From positions 358 through 23,837 of the IMG/VR virus record IMGVR_UViG_3300030104_006818: DNA of 23,480 nt; one strand, 5' to 3'. A program made the translations under genes and the position numbers. The notes beneath the pieces are model-generated. The model ran no database searches and was not told where the DNA came from. It saw nothing but the letters and a program-made list of their open reading frames with translations. Positions 2,489 through 21,236 of this stretch are shown here, in pieces. Numbering within the stretch: position 1 is the first letter of the stretch; every line of letters begins with the position of its first letter. The DNA comes from a virus.

Positions 2489-4945
2489 TCAGTTTGTTAC
2501 GTTACTATATTCAATATCATTTACCATAAGACTTATTGGAATATCCATCCAACTAGTATCGTATGTTATACTAGTATATATCTCACTATTAAATGAGATA
2601 TCAACCAGTCTACTAGCACCAGAGGATTCACCCACAATAGGACTTGGTTGTCCTGCCCAGTCCCCTAAGAATTTTGCTAGGTCTGCTCCATCAACAATTC
2701 CATCATCGTTTATATCTCCAATACCTCCTGTTGCACCCCATTCACCCAAGAGGACAGCAAGATCTTGTCCATCAATGTTCCCGTCTTGATTGAAGTCGGA
2801 CTCAGATAACCCTGTCGTAAATCTTCCGTTGTATACTTCGATAACTAGAGTATCTACTCCAAGATTGTAAAACGCTGTATTATTTCCTTGGTGATAAACT
2901 GAGGGTTCAAACGCCAATACTCTTCCTATCGCCTTCGGTTCGTTATATTTTTCTTGCCCAACAAGTTCTCCGATGCTATATGGTATTGTGTTTAGAAGAG
3001 TATCTGTAGATTCTTCATATGAGGATCCGTCCCGTGACGCATGGATATTGGATTTTGTAGTATTGTCTTCTCTAACTGGACGCATTGGAATTCGTACAAT
3101 ATCCCTTGAACCAGTTACTCCAAGGTTGGATAATCCTAAATGTGCTGGGTGACGATATACAATCCAGTAGTCTGCTGTTGCAGAGTCAGTCCCGACAACT
3201 TGAACAATCTGACCACCAGAGAATCCCCCGGAAAGACTTGTTTCAGATGGAGAAGTGTAACCACCAAAATGTGTCGCCCCTTGCGCCCCGGCGACGAATG
3301 TATTTCCTCTGCTTGAACCAGACGGGAAAGAACCATACAATCCTGCATGTTCTCCATCACTGTCGGTGGTTACTCCGATGTATCCGGTTCCGCCCAACGC
3401 ACCTTTTACAATCGTGCGGGTGGTTTCGACTTGATCAAATAGGAGTGGAAGATCTTGTCCGGTAGTATTGTATAAAACTCTATCTGGATTATGTGTGTGT
3501 CCTAGTTCCGGGAACAGGTGGGGGGTGCCGCTTGCTCCTGAAGTGAGAGTTATTCCCGCAAAATCTCCAGCGGTTCTTCCGTCTTGACCGTTATAACCTG
3601 TTGGATAAAAATCGCTGTGAACACCACCGAGGGTAAAACCTCTAGGATCGATGGTGGTTCCAAATGTGTGTGGGAGGTAGTGACCAATGATTGGACGGAA
3701 AGTGCTTGTCGCATCTTTATCCATTCCTGCATCACCAGACATCGAAACTTCATTTATATATTCTGAGAACATTAAAGTGCCGGATGGATGCACCAATTTA
3801 CGAACTGCATCAGCGAATACTTTTAGACTTTTATTTACTCTGATAATATAAGAATAATTTTGATAAAAGAAACTATCTTGAATGAAGGATCTTCCACTGA
3901 TCATTCCAGTATCATCTTTGTATGTGTCTGGACCATCAGTCAATACTACTTCACCCAAAGCAGACAGACTAGCACCAGTCCCACTAAATGTTTCAAACGA
4001 AAATAATAGATTTTCATTTGCTCGATAAACTCCAAAGTTTTCTTTATACTCAAATCCCCTGATATCGCCCAGTGGTCCAATGTTGTTTACTTCTGCATTT
4101 AGCAGTTTGTTTCCATATTGATCAGAAACTGTTACATTGTCGCCCAATTCATACCCAGTACCCCCGGCAGTAATTTCTAAAGAAGCAAGCGTGGGTAAAA
4201 CTGGAATTGTATATGCAGCAGAAGTCGTACCACTTGTGATAACCTCTACCGGATTGTTTGTGCTAAACGTACCCGAGATGTCCTGAACGGCAAGTGAAAA
4301 GAAATCTAACCCACCCTCATGAACAAAATCAACTCTATCAATCAATGCTGTTGCATATATCTCTTTGTTGCGGGGAGTTTTTTGTACTATCAAACTATTC
4401 TCTATTGATTTTGCTTCATCGATAGAAAACAGAGGGGCAATTCTAATAAATTGTCTATCATCAAATGTACTAGCGGAAAGTTTTAGAATTCTATCTTTTG
4501 GATAGTCGATATCAATCGTCGTGTTAAATAATACACGGAAGAGCAAATCAAAGGATGCCTTGGATCCTTTCGACCTATACATGTAACCAACATTTTTAAT
4601 TAAAGTTTTTTCGTTAGCACCATCCGCTAGGGTATATGGGAAGTCTTTGATAAACGTGTTTCTAAAATATTCTAAAAACTTGTCAAGAGTTTGGTCAATA
4701 TCATTATATGTGTTTAGTCTAACACCTTCTGCTCTTGGATTTCCGTGCTGTTCCGACCACTCATAATATGCCTCTACAAACTTTAGAAAAGTATCATAGT
4801 TCTCTAATACAAAATCAGGAAGTTGGTCTAATAGTTGTGAGGAAAATCTTTCATCAACCGCCGGTGTGTATGGGAGGCGATCAAATGTATATCCGTCAAT
4901 TCTTAGTGGTAGGAGGAGTGACCCACCAAATACTTTTAATGGCAT
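2489..4945 (-). CDS. Large baseplate structural protein in the gp7 position, with dockerin-like repeats
   Basis: This 818-residue protein sits between gp6 and gp8, the slot of T4 gp7 (about 1032 residues). The N-terminal 160 residues include LPDFVLENYDTFLKFVEAYY and a region with NVGYMYRSKGSKASFDLLFR, a pattern I know from structural proteins beside gp6 in marine T4-like phages. The middle is Gly/Thr/Ser-rich and looks beta-structured. Residues 715-764 form two dockerin-type loops: D717-x-N719-x-D721-G with D725 and D728-L729, then D744-x-N746-x-D748-G with D752 and D755-L756. Each is followed by a hydrophobic helix ending in EWG or DWA. A Pro/Gly/Ser linker and about 50 more residues follow. 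Orthology to gp7 is inferred from position, not from clear sequence identity. A wedge or baseplate-peripheral role is likely. Confidence 0.7.
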   Translation of the reverse strand: MPLKVFGGSLLLPLRIDGYTFDRLPYTPAVDERFSSQLLDQLPDFVLENYDTFLKFVEAYYEWSEQHGNPRAEGVRLNTYNDIDQTLDKFLEYFRNTFIKDFPYTLADGANEKTLIKNVGYMYRSKGSKASFDLLFRVLFNTTIDIDYPKDRILKLSASTFDDRQFIRIAPLFSIDEAKSIENSLIVQKTPRNKEIYATALIDRVDFVHEGGLDFFSLAVQDISGTFSTNNPVEVITSGTTSAAYTIPVLPTLASLEITAGGTGYELGDNVTVSDQYGNKLLNAEVNNIGPLGDIRGFEYKENFGVYRANENLLFSFETFSGTGASLSALGEVVLTDGPDTYKDDTGMISGRSFIQDSFFYQNYSYIIRVNKSLKVFADAVRKLVHPSGTLMFSEYINEVSMSGDAGMDKDATSTFRPIIGHYLPHTFGTTIDPRGFTLGGVHSDFYPTGYNGQDGRTAGDFAGITLTSGASGTPHLFPELGHTHNPDRVLYNTTGQDLPLLFDQVETTRTIVKGALGGTGYIGVTTDSDGEHAGLYGSFPSGSSRGNTFVAGAQGATHFGGYTSPSETSLSGGFSGGQIVQVVGTDSATADYWIVYRHPAHLGLSNLGVTGSRDIVRIPMRPVREDNTTKSNIHASRDGSSYEESTDTLLNTIPYSIGELVGQEKYNEPKAIGRVLAFEPSVYHQGNNTAFYNLGVDTLVIEVYNGRFTTGLSESDFNQDGNIDGQDLAVLLGEWGATGGIGDINDDGIVDGADLAKFLGDWAGQPSPIVGESSGASRLVDISFNSEIYTSITYDTSWMDIPISLMVNDIEYSNVTN
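2654..2803 (-). other. Dockerin-like double calcium-binding repeat (protein domain region)
   Basis: This segment encodes residues 715-764 of the gp7-slot protein. Two copies of the pattern D-x-N-x-D-G-x-x-D-x-x-D-L are separated by about 27 residues. Each is followed by an amphipathic stretch (AVLLGEW and AKFLGDW), the usual layout of a type I dockerin pair of F-hand calcium loops. In bacteria dockerins bind cohesin modules or cell-surface assemblies. What it does in a virion is unknown. Confidence 0.75.
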
Positions 4946-8436: not shown

Positions 8437-9596
8437 GACACACTCGCAAATTCAAAGTCTTCGTTTTGCACCGCACCGAGGTTTCTTGTTCCATAGAACT
8501 TATACAAAGGAGAATCTCTCCTAATTCTAAAATCATCATTATCATAATCAACGAAGTCTGCGGTTGTAATTGCAATCACATCAATCATGTCTTCGTATGA
8601 GTCCATGTTGGAAAAGTTACCATTGGTATTGGAACCCATTGCTAATATCTGTGCGCCGGATTGTCGAGAATCATCTGCGTTCGCATCGATGCCATGATCC
8701 CCGCAGTCAAATATAATACAACCTTGTAATGATCCTTTTCCGGGAAGTTGCGAAGAGGCACCCGTGGCATCCACACCAGATCCACCGACTTTGCAAATGG
8801 TGCAGTTTGCGACATCTAAATCTGTTTTCACCGAGGTGCTGTCTTGTTTAATCCCTTGTCCTTTGACATTGAATATTATACAATCTCTTACCCTTCCGGT
8901 GAGTGCTGTCAAATAAAGTCCGCCTTGATCACCACCAGCAGCAACTGTTCCGTCACCTTTGCCTGCCGGACCAATAATTCTACAATTATCTAATGATACA
9001 TTAGTGGTCGCCTTGACAACCGCATCAAACTCAGATCGAGCAGTATCGGTTATTTGAAACACACAGTCATGATAAGCGGCGGTGGTTATAGTTGCACAGT
9101 GGGCACTAGTATTTCTTGCGAGACATTTGAAGTTACAACCGACCCAGTGTTGTTGATCAACATCGGCAGTTTGACTTTCAAAAACACCAATTTGAGAATA
9201 TGAAGTGTTTGTGTTTTCAAAAGATAGACATTTGTAATATGTGTTTTCCTCTGCATCAACCATTGCGGTATTTGCACTACACACAAACAAAGGATAATCT
9301 GTCAAGTCCAAAAAAAGACCTGATTCCTGAAACTTAGGTCGAAGAATATTTCCACTTGAATCTGCACCGACCCATTGATTTGGTTGAGTTGATGTGGGGG
9401 CAGAACCACTGAATGTTAACTTGGTTGTGCAATCATAAGTTCCTGTGAGAAACACAAACCGCTTGTTCGCTCGGTCGAGTCCTTCGATGTTCGTTGACCA
9501 GTCGCCACTGCTAATCGCAGGGAGAGCGTTGGCGACGGAACTACCAGAGTTATCTCCAGCACCAGCAGGTGAAATGAATACGTCAGTTAATGCCAT
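8433..9596 (-). CDS. Right-handed parallel beta-helix protein, candidate tail spike or fibre
   Basis: The 387-residue product begins with TDVFISPAGAGDNSGSSVAN, a common opening of pectate-lyase-like right-handed beta-helix proteins. From about residue 150 to 310 it shows a ladder of short strands with N/D-C-x-I patterns (for example NCRIIGPAG, DCIIFNVKGQGI, NCTICKVGGSGVDATG, GCIIFDCGDHGIDAN), typical of PbH1 coils. Such proteins are often surface-binding or depolymerising tail spikes. No catalytic residues can be assigned by eye. It lies between the collagen-like fibre (1-base TAATG overlap) and PAAR. A fibre-tip or spike role is inferred. The sharp C-terminal end with RRDSPLYKF and LGAVQ is typical of uncharacterised beta-helix proteins. 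Confidence 0.8.
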   Translation of the reverse strand: MALTDVFISPAGAGDNSGSSVANALPAISSGDWSTNIEGLDRANKRFVFLTGTYDCTTKLTFSGSAPTSTQPNQWVGADSSGNILRPKFQESGLFLDLTDYPLFVCSANTAMVDAEENTYYKCLSFENTNTSYSQIGVFESQTADVDQQHWVGCNFKCLARNTSAHCATITTAAYHDCVFQITDTARSEFDAVVKATTNVSLDNCRIIGPAGKGDGTVAAGGDQGGLYLTALTGRVRDCIIFNVKGQGIKQDSTSVKTDLDVANCTICKVGGSGVDATGASSQLPGKGSLQGCIIFDCGDHGIDANADDSRQSGAQILAMGSNTNGNFSNMDSYEDMIDVIAITTADFVDYDNDDFRIRRDSPLYKFYGTRNLGAVQNEDFEFASVS

Positions 9597-12500
9597 TAGT
9601 CTGCTCCCTCAAATCTAATATATTCCATGAACCCTTGGACTAGTGTTATGCCGGATCCTATACCATCGATGTTCATGTAGATATAGTTGGGTCCATCAAT
9701 AGAGTTAACTGTAGCAGTCGCACCGAACGATGACACAGGGGCATTAACGGTTCCGACCAACGCCGAGTTACTCACACCAGCAGACATGTCGAACAAATCA
9801 GTTGGTTGGATCTTTCTATAAGATGCAGTAATTCCACCTGTTATCCCTGTGCGAATTCCTATCTCAGTTATTTTTGCACCATATGGTATTCTGTGAAGTG
9901 CGGATGTCTTCGCACCGGTCCCGATACTAGATGATGCCTGAATTGTAAAGTGAGCAACCTGTGATGGCGTTACTAATACATTTCCAGTTGTACCGTTGAC
10001 AGATGTTACAAGATCGTTTGCACTTTGTATATTACTACCATCATGGAAGGAGATACCAGCACCAACTACCATGCCATACTGAAATCCAACTTGTCCACTG
10101 CCCATGTCCATCGAGATTCCCTCGACTCGTTGGAATCTATCTCCAATTCGTCCGGTTGTCATAAGGAAATACATGCTACTTGTTGGACCTGATAGACCTT
10201 CAAGTCTTGCAGCACCACTTGCACCAAGAGCAAAGGTTGGTTTTGATCCCCCTAGATCCCCACCAGAGAAATTATACTCTGTATCACTGCCCTGAGTGAA
10301 TGGTATGCCATCGGTATCATTACAAACCGGATTACTGATGTCACATTTATTTCCGGTATCCAAAACAAGACTTAGGTCGAAGGTAAACCCATCGTTGAAT
10401 GAACCTGTTTCAACCTCATTTGTATTTCCGTCCCCGTCTGTTAAAGTATAGAAAAAGTTCCAGTTGTGTTGCTGAGTTACAATGGGAGATCGAGGATCAC
10501 CGCCCGATGCCACCTGAGTAACAGTATATGTGGTTCGGATTTCACTGATACTAGAACCAGATGAACCAGATGCACCACATGCTCCCGTGTTTCCCTGTAC
10601 ACCTTGGGCACCGGCGGCACCATCATCGCCCTTCACATTTCCTAAGTTCGGAGACGCTAATACATTTCCTTCACCATCAATCTGGTCTACAACAAGATTA
10701 TCACCACTAAGTCTTGGGTTTGTTAATCCGGCACCAGATGCACCGGTGGAACCAGATGCACCAGATGCACCGGTGGAACCAGATGCACCAGTGGATCCCG
10801 TGCTTCCTCGGGCACCAGCGGCACCATCATCGCCCTTCACATTTCCTAAGTTTGGAGATGCTATCACAGTTCCATCAGCATCAATCTGGTCTACTACAAG
10901 ATCAGTTCCACTGAGTCTTGGGTTTGTTAACCCGGCACCAGATGCACCAGTCTCTCCAGATGCACCAGTGGAACCAGATGCACCGGTAGCACCAGATGCA
11001 CCGGTAGCACCAGATGCACCGGTGACACCATCGACACCTTTTGATGACTTACTAATCCGCACCAGTTGACCATCACTAAAAGTACCAACATTTCGGATGG
11101 TCTGAAAACTGATAAGACTATAAACAGCAGGGTCTGCACTAGCATCGAGCGTGAATGCATTGGTAGATGCTTGAATTATTTTTTCAACAGTGAAATCCTC
11201 ACTTGTGATAATAATAATATCATTTTTAGAAATACCTGATGACAGAATCGGGGTGGCGACACCATTTTTATCTTTGTCTGTAATTTTAAATATTGAATCG
11301 AGGTGGACTTCACCATTTGCATCAACATCACCCGCCGTGGTTTCAAATATATACGGCGCACCGGCGGGAAGACCCTGATCTCCCTTCACACTTCCTAAGT
11401 TCTTGGATATTGATACATTTCCTTCACCGTCAATTTGATCTACTAAAAGATCATCACCACTAAGTCTTGGGTTTGTTAACCCGGCACCAGATGCACCAGT
11501 CTCTCCAGATGCACCAGTGGAACCAGATGCACCGGTAGCACCAGATGAACCGGTGTTACCTCTAGGACCAGAGGCACCATCTTTTCCAGATAATCCAGCG
11601 GTCGCCCCATCGGACGTAGTTCCATCAGAGGCAATGTTTGTAATTGTTAAAATCGGAACACCCTCTGCGTTCGGTGTAATTGTTACCTCGACACCCTTAC
11701 CATCGTCACCGACCACTTTGTCATCGCTGATTGTGGTTGTAGTCCCATCGCCTTTAGTTTGAGTTACAACTAGGTTGTCCCCGTCACGAACAGCAGATAT
11801 GCTATCGCCTTTGACAACGCCAAGGTTTACTGTTTCAGTTTCTCGAATATCACTCTCTGTTGGTTTATCAAGTTGAACAACCAACTCACCATCGACAATG
11901 TTGAGTTCAGAAATACCGGCACCGTCTTTGCCATCCTCACCCTGTAGACCTCTTTCAAATTCACTAACCAATGTGGTGTCGGTTCTATTAAAAGCAACTA
12001 ATTGGGTTGTGTTGTCGCCCGCACTGAAATTTTTAGGAGGAACTCTTTCTGCAAGCGGTTGGGTTTCTGTCAGATATGCATGAATGTCTTCGATGTTGTC
12101 CTCTAGAAGTTTAGCAATTTGATCTGTTACATCTTGGAGTTCACCAAAAACTTCTACGCCGACAAAATCTAATTCTATACCCGCATTACTTGCGTTTGTC
12201 CTGTTTCTCTCTATTTCAGCATCAGAGAAATATCCTGCGCCATCGTATACTGTCCCTGCATATGATTCACTACCGCTTATGTCTAAGTTAAATGAGAATG
12301 GATCAATCGACCTGCCCTTGGCAGCATCTCTTTTTTTCTTTACTCTTTTTGTAAATCCATAATACTCAAAGGGTCGAATCGCACCACTCGCACTGCCAGA
12401 ACGAAGTGTGTCAGAGGATCCGGAGGAATCTCCCTCGTTTGCCAGTGGATTGAAATCAATCGACCTACCCTTGGCAGCAATTCTTTTTTTCTTTTTTCCC

Positions 12501-12631
12501 TTTGTGAATCCATAGAACTCAAAGGGAATAAGTGTGCTTCTGTGAACTGGGGTATCATAGTAGTGCAATCGCAGAAAGATTCTACGAATTCTTAGATCAC
12601 GAATGGTTTGTTGTACTAACTCGTATGCCAT
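9596..12631 (-). CDS. Collagen-like tail fibre or structural protein
   Basis: The 1011-residue protein has four Gly-X-Y collagen-like stretches (about residues 352-390, 534-569, 600-634 and 670-694), made mostly of GAT, GAS and GST triplets. Between them lie near-identical modules opening with GLTNPRLSG and ending in LGxVKGDxG (about 390-425, 569-600 and 634-668). Two more diverged copies precede them (about 235-315). The N terminus has a duplicated block, YGFTK followed by KKKR, then AAKGRSID (residues 36-59 and 87-110). Residues 694-1011 form a beta-rich C-terminal head. Collagen-like stretches in phage fibres usually trimerise into rigid rods. Length polymorphism by repeat recombination is expected. 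It starts 1 base after gp5, so fibre and spike are co-expressed. Which fibre it is (long, short or neck) cannot be decided. Confidence 0.85.
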   Translation of the reverse strand: MAYELVQQTIRDLRIRRIFLRLHYYDTPVHRSTLIPFEFYGFTKGKKKKRIAAKGRSIDFNPLANEGDSSGSSDTLRSGSASGAIRPFEYYGFTKRVKKKRDAAKGRSIDPFSFNLDISGSESYAGTVYDGAGYFSDAEIERNRTNASNAGIELDFVGVEVFGELQDVTDQIAKLLEDNIEDIHAYLTETQPLAERVPPKNFSAGDNTTQLVAFNRTDTTLVSEFERGLQGEDGKDGAGISELNIVDGELVVQLDKPTESDIRETETVNLGVVKGDSISAVRDGDNLVVTQTKGDGTTTTISDDKVVGDDGKGVEVTITPNAEGVPILTITNIASDGTTSDGATAGLSGKDGASGPRGNTGSSGATGASGSTGASGETGASGAGLTNPRLSGDDLLVDQIDGEGNVSISKNLGSVKGDQGLPAGAPYIFETTAGDVDANGEVHLDSIFKITDKDKNGVATPILSSGISKNDIIIITSEDFTVEKIIQASTNAFTLDASADPAVYSLISFQTIRNVGTFSDGQLVRISKSSKGVDGVTGASGATGASGATGASGSTGASGETGASGAGLTNPRLSGTDLVVDQIDADGTVIASPNLGNVKGDDGAAGARGSTGSTGASGSTGASGASGSTGASGAGLTNPRLSGDNLVVDQIDGEGNVLASPNLGNVKGDDGAAGAQGVQGNTGACGASGSSGSSISEIRTTYTVTQVASGGDPRSPIVTQQHNWNFFYTLTDGDGNTNEVETGSFNDGFTFDLSLVLDTGNKCDISNPVCNDTDGIPFTQGSDTEYNFSGGDLGGSKPTFALGASGAARLEGLSGPTSSMYFLMTTGRIGDRFQRVEGISMDMGSGQVGFQYGMVVGAGISFHDGSNIQSANDLVTSVNGTTGNVLVTPSQVAHFTIQASSSIGTGAKTSALHRIPYGAKITEIGIRTGITGGITASYRKIQPTDLFDMSAGVSNSALVGTVNAPVSSFGATATVNSIDGPNYIYMNIDGIGSGITLVQGFMEYIRFEGAD
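10621..11497 (-). repeat. Repeated GLTNPRLSG modules alternating with Gly-X-Y repeats
   Basis: Three blocks of roughly 120 bases (near 10621-10744, 10822-10948 and 11380-11497) are closely similar at the DNA level. They are separated by short tandem repeats of the form GGTGCATCTGGTGCTACC-type triplets on the coding strand. The blocks encode the inter-collagen modules of the fibre. This is the most repetitive part of the window and a likely site of repeat-number variation or misassembly. Confidence 0.8.
12303..12530 (-). repeat. Two-copy direct repeat in the fibre gene N terminus
   Basis: Two similar blocks of about 74 bases (near 12303-12376 and 12454-12530) share CGACCTRCCCTTGGCAGCA and a T-rich tract. 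They encode the paired YGFTK...KKKR...AAKGRSID segments. The spacing is about 150 bases. The lysine/arginine-rich core is unusual for a virion fibre. Confidence 0.75.
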
Positions 12632-15774: not shown

Positions 15775-16856
15775 CAGAATCCATCCTTGACATGTTGTCT
15801 TGTAATATATTCTGCTTCCTTGAAGGAAAGCGATAAAGTAATTTTAGGAGGCATTCCATTTTTGAATGCGTAGTAAACATCATCCGGGGTATAGTTCGTG
15901 CTAATTGAATCTAAGAAACAACGACTTAACTTAGGAATTACTGGATTGTCTCTCACAGTTCCTTCTCCTGTTTTATCAAATGTTCTGTATTTGATTTCAA
16001 ACTCAGAGGGAAACTGAAAGAAGGCACTGTTGGCAGACAATTCAGGGTAGGCATGGAACCGAAAAACTTTAATAATTTGTGCTACGGTTTCCGCCTCTTC
16101 TACATTTCTGGGAATGAATACGAAGTTGAAAGCAAAAGTTCTCATATCAATTCCCTGAAATATTTGTTCTTTTCGTGGATTCATGACAACACCAAGTTCA
16201 GCAGAAATTGCTGTCTCAGTGTTTAATGATTCTTGCCCCAGCACCCCTGCTGCCTTGTCTGCCGCACCCGCTAATTTTTTCAATGCTCCGAGAGCAACGG
16301 TACTGGTGGTTGCAGAAGCACTTGATAGATTTTTTAATCCAGCAAACGCCGTTTCTTCGTATTTCATGGTATCTTTATATTCTATCCCACCGGGAACATA
16401 AAGAAAAACAGAATCGTTGGTTGTCTCTGTTGCCTTGGAAAGTCTAGTATCATTTAGAACAGTCTCAGGTTCTCTGGCGTTATCTCCAAAGTCAAGAAAC
16501 TTATCAATTTCTTTTTTTGCCTGAACGACCTCGCCTTCGGTTTCGTTCGTTTGCTCTGTTCCTGTTGCCTCTTGTTCACCAAAACCAAGTGCGCCCTTTG
16601 TTTTCTTTACCAGACTACTTAACCCACCATTTTGTTTAAAGAAAATTCTAAACTCCAACCAATTTATAATTCCATTGGTGTTTTCTGCGTTTGGATTTTC
16701 TGCTGCCAAGAGGTCAGATGGATAATAAAGTGGAGTCCCATTTGTTATGGAATTCATAGATCCACTTCTTCTGCTGCTGCTAAATGCATTATCAACAGTT
16801 GCTGCTGTTCTCTCGAATATATCTCCACTAGATGCTTGTGGGGTTTCTTCTGCCAT
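15774..16856 (-). CDS. 48: Baseplate tail-tube cap gp48
   Basis: The 360-residue protein matches T4 gp48 in length (364) and shows its conserved C-terminal half: FAFNFVFIPRNVEEAETVAQ, FRFHAYPEL, FPSEFEIKYR, and the end with CFLDSISTNYTPD and ISLSF-like strands before a final GF. The N-terminal 150 residues are polar and more variable. gp48 and gp54 cap the hub and start tube polymerisation, and they share the tube fold, so a gp54 identity cannot be wholly excluded. It is the first gene of the minus-strand operon, with AGGAG located 7-8 bases before the ATG. The divergent gp4 gene starts only 23 bases away, so any promoter must lie inside gp4 coding sequence. Confidence 0.85.
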   Translation of the reverse strand: MAEETPQASSGDIFERTAATVDNAFSSSRRSGSMNSITNGTPLYYPSDLLAAENPNAENTNGIINWLEFRIFFKQNGGLSSLVKKTKGALGFGEQEATGTEQTNETEGEVVQAKKEIDKFLDFGDNAREPETVLNDTRLSKATETTNDSVFLYVPGGIEYKDTMKYEETAFAGLKNLSSASATTSTVALGALKKLAGAADKAAGVLGQESLNTETAISAELGVVMNPRKEQIFQGIDMRTFAFNFVFIPRNVEEAETVAQIIKVFRFHAYPELSANSAFFQFPSEFEIKYRTFDKTGEGTVRDNPVIPKLSRCFLDSISTNYTPDDVYYAFKNGMPPKITLSLSFKEAEYITRQHVKDGF

Positions 16857-16879
16857 GTTTTGCTCCTAGATATATGTAT

Positions 16880-17317
16880 ATGGCATATAAAGGAAAATAC
16901 AAACCATCTCGCCCAGATAAATACCAAGGAGATCCTACAAAAATCACCTACCGTAGTCTCTGGGAGAGAAAATGTATGAAACTCTTTGATGATAACCCCA
17001 ATGTTTTAACATGGGCATCCGAAGAGATCTGTATACCTTATGTATCTCCTGTGGATGGAAAAAAACACAGATACTACCCAGACTTCATGGTAGAACTTCG
17101 CAACAAGAGTGGAGAAATTGAAACTCTTATGATAGAAGTAAAACCTCTCAGACAAACTAAAGAACCAAATAAACCCACCAGTGGTAGGATCACCCGTAGA
17201 TACATGACTGAAGTAAAAACATACGCTATAAATAATGCAAAGTGGAAAGCAGCAGAACAAGTATGTCGTGATCGTGGGTGGTGTTTTAAGATCATCACAG
17301 AGAAAGAAATATTCTGA
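16880..17317 (+). CDS. 4: Head completion protein gp4 (nuclease-like)
   Basis: The 145-residue product from the ATG at 16880 starts MAYKGKYKPS, the usual opening of gp4 in marine T4-like phages. An upstream in-frame ATG at 16874 would add only two residues, and longer extensions run into gp48 and have no family support. It has YRSLWERK (about 24-31), YYPDFMVEL (65-73) and IEVKP (85-89), giving a PD-(D/E)xK-like set: E29, D68, E86 and K88. T4 gp4 (also called gp50, about 150 residues) is needed to finish DNA-filled heads before tail joining. The ribosome-binding site is weak. The stop overlaps the next start by 1 base (TGATG). Confidence 0.9.
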   Translation: MAYKGKYKPSRPDKYQGDPTKITYRSLWERKCMKLFDDNPNVLTWASEEICIPYVSPVDGKKHRYYPDFMVELRNKSGEIETLMIEVKPLRQTKEPNKPTSGRITRRYMTEVKTYAINNAKWKAAEQVCRDRGWCFKIITEKEIF

Positions 17318-17915: not shown

Positions 17916-18080
17916 ATGAGCAACAAACAAACCAACCCTCTCACTGACTGGGAAATTCCTACTATCTGGGAAATTATTGATAGAATGGAGTTTAAATATT
18001 TGTTGGGTGAAGAGAAGAAACCAGAGCGTCCGGCAAAGAAGAAAAGAAAATACACGAAAAGGAGTAAGAAAAAGTCATGA
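17916..18080 (+). CDS. Small basic protein, 54 residues
   Basis: An ATG at 17916 follows AAGGA and an A-rich spacer. The frame runs 54 codons to a TGA that overlaps the next start (ATGA). The first 30 residues are acidic/hydrophobic (TDWEIPTIWEIIDRMEFKYL). The last 18 are dense in Lys/Arg (AKKKRKYTKRSKKKS), suggesting contact with nucleic acid or an acidic protein. It fills an otherwise empty 163-base gap with coupled junctions on both sides, which supports it being real. No homologue is recognised. Confidence 0.7.
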   Translation: MSNKQTNPLTDWEIPTIWEIIDRMEFKYLLGEEKKPERPAKKKRKYTKRSKKKS

Positions 18081-18721
18081 GCATGTTTGGGTTTAACGTC
18101 AACAAATTTATGTCCGAAATTGGAAAATCGGGTGTAGCATATCCACATCGTTATGAAATACTTTTTGGATCAACCCGGCAGGGGACACAGTTGTTTGATC
18201 GTGGAACCAGTGAAAAATTAAATGCTAGACTTGAATCTGTCTCTCTCCCCGCTAGTGTTATTGGAAGCAGTGCAGTAAAACTTCAAGGGATCGATAGAGA
18301 AATGCCATACGGTAGACTCTACGAGGGAGATCTTACTATGGTTTTTCTAGAGGACCGAACCTTTAATGTTAGAAAAACATTTGAAGCGTGGCAAAGATTG
18401 ATAATCGACGAGGAAACTTTTCATTGTGGTTACTATGATGAATATGTGTGTGATCACCTCGATGTTACAATGTCCGACCTCAAAGAAAAAGAAGTTTACA
18501 AGGTTCGTCTTTTTGATTTGTTCCCCAAGTCAGTTAATGCGGTAGAACTATCAGCAGCAGGGGAGGCACTTGTAAAAACAGAAGTTGCTATTTCGTTTAG
18601 ACGCTGGGTCAGTAATCCAGAAGAGTCCAGTGGTGGGCAAAATGAAACAATAGCAGATACAGGACCAAACAATCCACCAAGACCACCAAGACCACCGAGG
18701 ACCACTGGGTTTTTCGGTTAA
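18077..18721 (+). CDS. Tail-tube-fold protein (gp19-type, gp54 possible)
   Basis: The 214-residue protein has the features of gp19-like tube proteins. They are an early strand ending in ARLESVSLPAS (about 50-60), REMPYGRLYEGDLTMVF (about 75-91), FNVRKTFEAWQRLI (about 97-110), VYKVRLFDLFPKSVNAVELS (about 141-160) and VAISFRRW (about 173-180). T4 gp19 (163 residues) has the same sequence of elements. The C terminus carries an extra 30 residues ending in three PPR-type repeats and GFFG. Its place before the gp26/gp51-like chaperones and tape measure suits a tube or tube-junction protein. The main gp19 could lie elsewhere with gp18, in which case this would be a gp54-like initiator. Confidence 0.72.
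   Translation: MSMFGFNVNKFMSEIGKSGVAYPHRYEILFGSTRQGTQLFDRGTSEKLNARLESVSLPASVIGSSAVKLQGIDREMPYGRLYEGDLTMVFLEDRTFNVRKTFEAWQRLIIDEETFHCGYYDEYVCDHLDVTMSDLKEKEVYKVRLFDLFPKSVNAVELSAAGEALVKTEVAISFRRWVSNPEESSGGQNETIADTGPNNPPRPPRPPRTTGFFG
18674..18700 (+). repeat. Three 9-base repeats encoding Pro-Pro-Arg
   Basis: Copies CCACCAAGA, CCACCAAGA and CCACCGAGG are adjacent and in frame at the C terminus of the tube-fold protein. They give a short proline-arginine tail. Confidence 0.85.
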
Positions 18722-18748: not shown

Positions 18749-19438
18749 ATGGCATTACCAAAGGTAGAAACACCAACATACAAACTAAAGATTCCATCCA
18801 CAGGAAAAAGTGTAAATTACAGACCTTTCTTGGTCAAAGAAGAGAAACTTCTGATGATGGCGAAAGAGGGTGGCGATACATCCCAAATGGTGGACACGCT
18901 AAAGAAACTAGTTTCGGCGTGCATCGAAGATGATATTGATGTAAATTCACTGACAACATACGACATCGAGTATATTTTCTTGATGCTTCGAGCAAAATCT
19001 GTCGGAGAAGAGGTTGAGGTGCTAGTCACCTGTGAGCATTGTGGTGCAAAAACGCCAATGTCTTTGATGATCGGTAAAGATATTAAACTACACATGGGAG
19101 AGGAAGTCGAGTCGCGGGTGGCGTTAACCTCTGATGTTGGGGTCATTCTTAAACACCCAACAGTTGATGCGATATCCAAGGTCAACACAGAGGACTCTAT
19201 GGAAGTCCTGATTAGTTGTATTGAATCGATTTATGATTCCACGACTGTCCACGATGTAAAAGACTACCCGAAACAGGAGGTTCTTGATTTCGTGGGGGCG
19301 TTAAATGTAAAAGAACTACAAAAACTCCAAAACTACTTTGACAACATGCCAAAGATAAAATGTGATATAACATACACATGTGAGGAATGTGGTAAAGAAA
19401 GTCGTCTGGTGATTGAGGGACTTTCAAATTTTTTCTGA
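18749..19438 (+). CDS. 26: Baseplate hub assembly protein gp26 / tail-assembly chaperone, zero-frame product
   Basis: The 229-residue product resembles T4 gp26 (208 residues). It has an N-terminal segment with KIPSTGKSVNYRPFLVKEEK, a helical region, and two CxxC pairs (C95/C98 and C211/C214) that could bind zinc. T4 gp26 is a hub assembly factor not found as a major virion part. The gene follows an AAGGA ribosome site by 9 bases. Its last codons, TCA AAT TTT TTC TGA, contain overlapping slippery heptamers, and the -1 frame is open for 59 more codons. The protein is therefore probably made in two forms, the shorter ending here and a 288-residue fusion. Confidence 0.85.
   Translation: MALPKVETPTYKLKIPSTGKSVNYRPFLVKEEKLLMMAKEGGDTSQMVDTLKKLVSACIEDDIDVNSLTTYDIEYIFLMLRAKSVGEEVEVLVTCEHCGAKTPMSLMIGKDIKLHMGEEVESRVALTSDVGVILKHPTVDAISKVNTEDSMEVLISCIESIYDSTTVHDVKDYPKQEVLDFVGALNVKELQKLQNYFDNMPKIKCDITYTCEECGKESRLVIEGLSNFF
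19426..19435 (+). promoter_or_regulatory. Predicted -1 programmed ribosomal frameshift site
   Basis: The ten bases AAATTTTTTC contain A AAT TTT and T TTT TTC in the gp26 reading frame. Both fit the X-XXY-YYZ rule, and the gp26 stop TGA is the next codon (19436-19438). A shift at either heptamer gives the same protein sequence. The -1 frame has no good start of its own. Confidence 0.75.
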
Positions 19439-19614
19439 TTTGCCTCTCTCATGACACACTGGAGTCTTTGTACCGTGTGAATTTCTTGATGATGCAAGAT
19501 CATAAATATAGTTTGACGGAACTAGAGAATTTAATTCCGTGGGAAAGACATGTATTCATTGGATTATTACAAGAGCATCTTGAGAAACAAAAAGAGGCGT
19601 ATAAGGAACGATAA
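19435..19614 (+). CDS. 51: gp51-like -1 frame extension of gp26
   Basis: From the slippery site the -1 frame reads 59 codons to a TAA that overlaps the tape-measure ATG (TAATG). The peptide contains LSHDTLESLYRVNFLMMQ, HKYSLTELENLIPWER and a helical end with LLQEHLEKQKEAYKER. I recognise this as the gp51-like type in marine T4-like phages, and it resembles the T half of G/GT chaperones (W/Y-R followed by an LTPWE-like motif). The only in-frame ATGs (19489 and 19492) lack a ribosome-binding site and would remove the first 18 or 19 residues, including LSHDTLESLYR. Expression as a gp26-gp51 fusion is therefore the best reading. T4 gp51 itself is a separate, longer protein, so the symbol is by similarity of role. 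Confidence 0.75.
   Translation: MICLSHDTLESLYRVNFLMMQDHKYSLTELENLIPWERHVFIGLLQEHLEKQKEAYKER
19455..19479 (+). other. Possible stimulatory hairpin downstream of the slippery site
   Basis: CACAC (19455-19459) can pair with GTGTG (19475-19479), and GG (19461-19462) with CC (19473-19474) around a one-base bulge. The distance of 19 bases from the slippery site is longer than usual for a frameshift stimulator, so its role is uncertain. Confidence 0.35.
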
Positions 19615-21236
19615 TGGCATTACCACCTAGAGACGAAAAAGGTCGATTTACCAAACCACTCATGGAACTATTGGGTCCGCGAGGTGAGGATGAAAAGAAC
19701 ACTGATGCTATTGTCAATGCTGTCGAAGCATCTGCTGCAAAGATAACAAGTGCTGTAGATGAGGGTTCTGATGGTGCCGGTAAAGAGCAACGTCAAGAGG
19801 AAAAGAAAGATAGAAAAGGTCTTTTCAAGAGTCTATCCTCCACTATTCTGGGTGGCATGGGTGAAATTGGAAAGAACATAGGAAAAATTGGAAAGAAAGG
19901 TGGGGGTCTTGTAGAGTCTCTTCTTGGTAGTATTGGACTAGGTATACCCGCTCTTGGTATGCTCGGAGCGGGGTTGACTGGACTTGGGTTGTCAATTACC
20001 GGTGATCTCTTTCCAAAAATCAAACCAATTGTATCCGCACTTAAACTACTCGCTTATTCTGTATTTGGACCAGTCATTGCAATTATAGATTTTGCAGTCG
20101 GGTTCTTCAAGGGATTTGCAAACTCAGAAGAAAGTAACTTTGGTGCAAAACTTGTAGATGGACTAGTTGGTGGTGTTGCTCAAATTGTCGATACTCTTAC
20201 ATTTGGTTTGATAGGATTCGACGCAATCAAAGATTTCTTAGATCCGATTTATCAACCGTTCAAGGATGCATTCTATAATATTTCTGCCATTATCAATGAT
20301 CCAGACAAAGGTATCTTTGGTAAGATCATGGGAGTGATCGGTGAGATATTCCTTGCAATTGGTAGATTCCAATTGAATATTATTACGAAAATAGGTGAAG
20401 TCATTGCTAACGTCGGGTCTTACATTTTATTTGACCTCGGTCCAATGTTGTTCGAGAAGTTGAAAGAGGGATTTAACTTCTTGTTTGATTTCTTTACAAT
20501 CGAACTCCCTGCGTATCTCCCCGTAATATACGAAACGGTGAAGAACGCTGTCCTTGAGGTTGGCAATACTCTTTACAACTTCTTCTTTGAAACGGTTCCA
20601 AATTTCATCATGGAACTTCCGGGAATGATTGGTAACGCAGTCCTTCGAGTCGGAACTTATCTTTTAGATGTTTTCCAATATCCCATAACGGTTCTAGGTG
20701 AGTGGTTTACCTCCGCTAAACTTAGCATACAAATATTGATGGCGAAAGCAGCAAAATATATCGCAGAAGTCTTAAACGTGTTTGGTGCCGATGAGGATGA
20801 TCCCGCCGTTATCGCAGCACAGAAAAAAATAGATCAATTTGAAAGAGAAAAAGCACAACTTGATGCTGTAGTGGCGGAGAGAAAAGCGATGGAGGCGAAG
20901 GAAGAGGCGAAGCAGGCGAATGAAAGATTTGAAAGACTTGCTCGTCGAGGACAAGATAAGGCACTTGGTGCGTACGTTCGTGGCATGGATAGAGATGAAC
21001 AAAGATTGTTTATGGAGGCACGTGCCGCTAAAACCGGACAATCCATTCAAGAAGTGCAAAAAGAAATTATGTTTGCCGAGCAAGACCGATACACATCTGG
21101 AATGGAACGTCAGACACAAATAAATCAAATCAATACCACCAATGCACCGACAACGAATGCAATGGAAATGAACCCAGAACCATCAACCGACATAGAAGGT
21201 CGAGCGTTGGTGGGATCTGCTCAATTATCGGTATAA
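19614..21236 (+). CDS. 29: Tail tape-measure protein (gp29-type)
   Basis: The 540-residue protein has a polar N terminus (ALPPRDEKGRFTKPL), a Gly/Lys-rich stretch (about 75-100) and several hydrophobic segments from about 105 to 330 (for example LGIPALGMLGAGLTGLGLSI). A charged coiled-coil-like region follows (about 405-450, QFEREKAQLDAVVAERKAME). This layout fits tape-measure proteins. T4 gp29 is 590 residues. Its start overlaps the stop of the gp51-like frame (TAATG), and in tailed phages the tape measure directly follows the frameshifted chaperone pair. By the T4 length ratio the tail would be slightly shorter than T4's, which is inference only. A terminator follows the stop. Confidence 0.82.
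   Translation: MALPPRDEKGRFTKPLMELLGPRGEDEKNTDAIVNAVEASAAKITSAVDEGSDGAGKEQRQEEKKDRKGLFKSLSSTILGGMGEIGKNIGKIGKKGGGLVESLLGSIGLGIPALGMLGAGLTGLGLSITGDLFPKIKPIVSALKLLAYSVFGPVIAIIDFAVGFFKGFANSEESNFGAKLVDGLVGGVAQIVDTLTFGLIGFDAIKDFLDPIYQPFKDAFYNISAIINDPDKGIFGKIMGVIGEIFLAIGRFQLNIITKIGEVIANVGSYILFDLGPMLFEKLKEGFNFLFDFFTIELPAYLPVIYETVKNAVLEVGNTLYNFFFETVPNFIMELPGMIGNAVLRVGTYLLDVFQYPITVLGEWFTSAKLSIQILMAKAAKYIAEVLNVFGADEDDPAVIAAQKKIDQFEREKAQLDAVVAERKAMEAKEEAKQANERFERLARRGQDKALGAYVRGMDRDEQRLFMEARAAKTGQSIQEVQKEIMFAEQDRYTSGMERQTQINQINTTNAPTTNAMEMNPEPSTDIEGRALVGSAQLSV

Follow-up and report, generated by a model that had tools for sequence, protein, structure and literature searches.

Probable programmed −1 frameshifting between gp26 and a gp51-like frame in an uncultured T4-type phage

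Introduction

In the DNA of an uncultured T4-type phage, the gp26 gene ends in a run of T residues, and a second, gp51-like frame opens at its stop codon. The locus raises the question of how that second frame is translated: as a gene of its own, or as an extension of gp26 made by ribosomes that change frame. In phage lambda, the short chaperone gpG coats the tape measure protein, the extension carried by the long form gpGT recruits tube subunits, and both leave before maturity (PMC5009743). The same 2016 review of frameshifting describes G-T frameshifting as conserved in long-tailed phages "except T4". T4 gp26 and gp51 have been counted among the chaperones of hub assembly, and the final particle lacks gp51 (PMC3004832), which fits a chaperone that leaves before maturity. 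The window, the whole stretch of 23,480 nucleotides analysed here, comprises bases 358–23837 of a record of 24,583 bases from an uncultured virus. A search of a phage collection found no close DNA relative of it among named phage records.

Results

The gp26 gene (18749..19438, + strand) encodes a protein of 229 residues and ends with a TGA at 19436–19438. It matches PF12322 over its full length (E 4e-63; 213.6 bits against a curated cut-off of 24.5), covers positions 5–232 of the 282 of phrog_150, and has a confidently predicted structure (pLDDT 89.8), consistent with a short, G-like tail-assembly chaperone (TAC-N). The 3' end of the gene reads TCA AAT TTT TTC TGA. The −1 frame (19435..19614, +) holds 59 codons and a TAA (19612–19614) that overlaps the ATG of the next gene at 19614, and its 59-residue peptide matches phrog_634 ("baseplate hub assembly catalyst", gp51) at positions 58–114 of 121 (E 1.2e-21). 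It is thus a candidate T-like C-terminal extension of a long chaperone. Upstream of gp26 lies a gene with a tail-tube fold (18077..18721, +; phrog_45 "tail tube", E 6e-31). Downstream lies a gene for a protein of 540 residues (19614..21236, +), assigned as the tape measure by its position and by phrog_991 ("tail length tape measure protein", E 3e-5). The initial annotation, made from the letters alone, had given the junction sequence, the stop, the 59-codon frame and the TAATG overlap exactly as they are; its assignment of the peptide to the gp51 type and its likening of the gene order to that of lambda G/GT are borne out by these profile matches. The same gene run on the + strand encodes a DNA end protector (phrog_429) and a head-completion protein of the gp4 type (16832–17317, +; phrog_218, head-completion nuclease), the latter matching the N-terminal domain of TnsA-like endonucleases (PF08722, E 5e-24).

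Two overlapping heptamers of the X-XXY-YYZ form had been described before the stop codon, and both are present: A_AAT_TTT (19426..19432, +) and T_TTT_TTC (19429..19435, +). Since TTTTTTC is common in the window (22 copies against 11.4 expected), the motif alone is weak evidence for a slip site. Relatives were therefore collected by gp26 similarity (33–91% identity), with an intact gp26 end required, and the loci were reduced to less than 80% identity; with the addition of phi-pp2, Moby, Atu_ph04, ACG-2014e and Sf-CH1b they form 33 lineages outside the Tevenvirinae and Ackermannviridae. An in-frame NNT TTT TTY lies near the gp26 end in 33/33 of these lineages, and in every collected locus with an intact gp26 end, T4 and the Ackermannviridae apart. 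The residue ahead of the two phenylalanines varies (Ser, Asp, Asn, Ala, Thr or His), yet the third base is T in both the NNT and the TTT codon in all 33, the first phenylalanine codon being TTT throughout. The last base of the heptamer is C in 26 of the 33. Given each gene's own codon usage, the conservation of the heptamer has a log10 P of about −19 (−18.9), a value that is indicative because the lineages share ancestry. An invariant phenylalanine column elsewhere in gp26, taken as a control, is split between 13 TTT and 20 TTC; synonymous sites in the gene are therefore free to change. The gp26 stop lies 0, 1, 2, 3 or 8 codons 3' of the heptamer across relatives, indicating that what is held fixed is the heptamer rather than the stop. 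The comparison of gp26 3' ends that had been proposed as a check thus finds the run kept and the −1 frame coding, although of the two heptamers only T_TTT_TTC is conserved. A_AAT_TTT was rejected as a slip site because its preceding codon and base vary among relatives, and it is probably incidental.

The Ackermannviridae were set aside as bearers of the same site; they have a homologous open −1 frame but no canonical heptamer. Their junction (L005, L096–L113) reads GA[A/G] ATT TTC AT[T/C] TAA, with TAATG in three loci. Vibrio phage D503 was likewise set aside as a bearer of the slip site.

Substitutions in the −1 frame follow the pattern of coding sequence under purifying selection. Its pN/pS in the window is 0.10, 0.06 and 0.02 against the three closest relatives (L006, L007 and L008, respectively). 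Across 79 locus pairs the median is 0.21, the other two frames giving 1.1 and 1.8. In all 61 pairs that are comparable in every frame, the −1 frame has the lowest value of the three. Conserved residues begin within the first codons past the slip site, ahead of any start codon in most lineages. No credible start was found in the −1 frame of the window, in agreement with the initial annotation: a TTG at codon 12 is the earliest candidate, followed by a GTG at codon 15, and no ATG appears until codon 19, where it sits behind conserved residues and lacks an obvious ribosome site.

It could be argued that the −1 frame is nevertheless a gene in its own right (gp51), reached by translational restart at an internal start codon. 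Many GenBank records annotate it so, among them those of P-SSM4, phiM12, Melnitz, Cr30 and Moby. In Cr30, phi-pp2, Atu_ph04, Moby, phiM12 and the locus L057, an ATG in the −1 frame does overlap the gp26 stop (TRATG), and the heptamer is kept there too. Because of this overlap, restart may yield a free C-terminal domain in the non-cyanophage lineages that carry TRATG. The window has no overlapping ATG, however, candidate starts shift in position between relatives, and one locus (L061) has no ATG, GTG or TTG within the first 30 codons of the frame. Restart also leaves unexplained the synonymous constraint on NNT TTT TTY in every lineage and the existence of homologues fused in frame. As an account of the locus as a whole it is therefore very unlikely. 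The loci in which TRATG stands beside the heptamer are L004, L057, L116, L117, L118 and L092.

The fused homologues are provided by T4 itself and by other two-gene phages. T4 gp51 (249 residues) matches phrog_150 over positions 13–280 of 282, and T4 gp26 matches it over positions 14–235. On this profile evidence, T4 gp51 is not a second half but the long form in full, a gp26 homologue with an added C-terminal domain. Since T4 gp51 spans the entire fused profile and T4 gp26 its short part, T4 would use two genes where the present phage uses one. A profile of the fused marine proteins aligns with a T4-type gp51 profile over nearly its full length (hhalign 99.2%, E 6.5e-20), and the T4-type gp51 proteins that align along the fused profile include that of Thanatos-2. 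In whole genomes, T4, Thanatos-2 and Vibrio phage TDDLMA each have a short gene and a long, in-frame gene. In TDDLMA the two stand in tandem, a large gene follows where a tape measure would be expected, and CDS0179 is the in-frame fusion. Syn30, Melnitz, Cr30, P-SSM4, phiM12, phi-pp2 and Atu_ph04 have one gp26, with the tail domain directly after it in another frame. The tail domains of Moby and of Klebsiella phage May have diverged too far to be matched securely by profile, and their assignment follows from the open −1 frame.

Structures were predicted for gp26 and, as a natural fusion, for a T4-type gp51. The gp51 model repeats the strand and helix order of gp26 and adds three helices. Comparison of folds with the solved HK97 chaperone (2ob9) gave a non-significant match (rank 37, E 2.8, TM 0.38 on target), and a sequence search of solved structures with the fused profile gave no match.

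Elements that might stimulate slippage were sought on both sides of the heptamer. A GAGG (19415..19418, +) resembling a Shine-Dalgarno sequence precedes the slip site by 10 nt. The glutamate codon at this position is GAG in 13 of the 19 lineages with glutamate there, against 6.0 expected (P 5e-4), and none of 300 synonymous shuffles reaches the mean strength with which the region pairs with the anti-Shine-Dalgarno CCUCC. In dnaX, −1 frameshifting is stimulated by a Shine-Dalgarno element placed some 10 nt upstream. The GAGG-like element is absent in many lineages, and its role as a putative 5' stimulator is for that reason suggestive. Downstream RNA structure across relatives is weakly above background (mean z −1.39; controls −0.52), and nothing is marked in the 3' fold of the window itself (z −1.41 and −0.43). 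No clear stem-loop common to the relatives emerged, and on these grounds one was not adopted as the 3' stimulator.

A change of frame on the T run could also be made by RNA polymerase rather than the ribosome. The run has six T, and in some lineages, where the codons read TTT TTT, seven or more. Six T interrupted by a C is short for transcriptional slippage. Furthermore, the prevalence of heptamers that end in C, together with their fixed phase, fits tandem tRNA slippage, and the SD-like element that many lineages carry 10 nt upstream agrees with frameshifting by the ribosome. Slippage by the polymerase is thus a highly improbable explanation. That one in-frame gene was split by a homopolymer error in sequencing or assembly, for which the T6 run and the in-frame T4 gp51 and TDDLMA CDS0179 might speak, is scarcely credible and is excluded in practice, since independent contigs share the frame relation (L006–L008, at about 91% amino-acid identity, and dozens more distant), all intact contigs sampled outside the T4 type, independently sequenced isolate genomes among them, show the break, and the stop codons of frame-broken relatives differ in identity and distance.

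Discussion

The results make it very probable that a programmed −1 frameshift at the end of gp26 gives rise to a short and a long chaperone of the G/GT kind. This reading is favored by the synonymous-site signature of the heptamer, purifying selection on the −1 frame, the lack of a start codon, the gene order and the in-frame fused homologues. We infer that the fusion is produced, how often, and what it does. Most ribosomes would stop at the TGA at 19436 and release gp26 as TAC-N, and a minority would slip back one base on T_TTT_TTC and read past the stop, yielding a fusion of 288 residues that ends in the gp51-like domain (TAC-NC). Their roles would follow those of lambda G/GT: gp26 probably coats the tape measure, the added domain would recruit tail-tube subunits, and both forms would leave before the tail is completed. 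The likeness drawn to lambda is one of layout, in that tube, G-T and tape-measure genes follow in the same order; a difference is the heptamer, which in the present phage is T_TTT_TTC.

In T4, the two proteins come from genes on opposite strands and no slip site is found at the gp26 end. The short form of the present phage is homologous to T4 gp26 and the whole fusion to T4 gp51. The initial annotation had suggested that T4-type gp26 and gp51 are the two halves of a G/GT-like chaperone. Its frameshifted chaperone is supported, but the halves do not hold for T4, where gp51 corresponds to the entire fusion. Most sampled lineages of the T4 superfamily appear to follow the G-T frameshift rule, and T4 reaches both proteins by way of two genes. 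Many cyanophage-type records annotate gp51 as separate or truncated, or omit it; most such gp51 annotations should be read as a frameshifted extension of gp26.

The initial annotation also did not know this idea to be standard. It is not new, to judge from passages in PMC10885494 and PMC12846349, which attribute both the paired chaperone genes of T4-like phages and their poly-T signals for frameshifting to Vladimirov, Gautam and Davidson (2022, Virology 566:9–15). The principle of frameshifting in T4-like chaperones thus appears to be already published, and the present locus is therefore a further example of it. As those passages describe the earlier work, the systems are alike in having a short and, in some phages, a fused long gene; the present phage differs in being uncultured and in having no close DNA match among named phages. 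The reviewed literature did not yield three points, all of which may be in Vladimirov et al.: the breadth of the site, which extends to KVP40-type phages and to phages of Agrobacterium, Stenotrophomonas and Sinorhizobium; the GAGG ahead of the heptamer; and the overlap of stop and start codons in non-cyanophage lineages. A comparable arrangement is described for the chaperone of phage Adele (PMC12846349), in which a −1 frameshift with a conserved GTTTTT at the TAC-N end precedes the tape measure. The likeness is to the layout as described, and Adele belongs to a different phage family, the Vandenendeviridae.

The slip site is retained in KVP40-type phi-pp2; in T4 and Thanatos-2 there are two genes instead. 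It is possible, if rather doubtful, that the T4 superfamily used frameshifting ancestrally and that gene duplication took its place within the Straboviridae, that non-cyanophage lineages use both the frameshift and restart at TRATG, and that many marine members have a 5' SD-like stimulator.

Elsewhere in the window, two genes on the − strand encode large proteins. One (2489–4945) encodes a baseplate-wedge-like protein of 818 residues (PF23786), in which residues 711–732 match Dockerin type I weakly (E 4e-4, just under the Pfam cut-off). Two calcium-binding repeats of the DxNxDGxxDxxD type can be seen by eye in that region, which is unusual for a phage baseplate protein. The other (9596–12631) encodes a protein of 1011 residues with three stretches of collagen repeats (PF01391, E 2e-13) that is probably a tail fibre.
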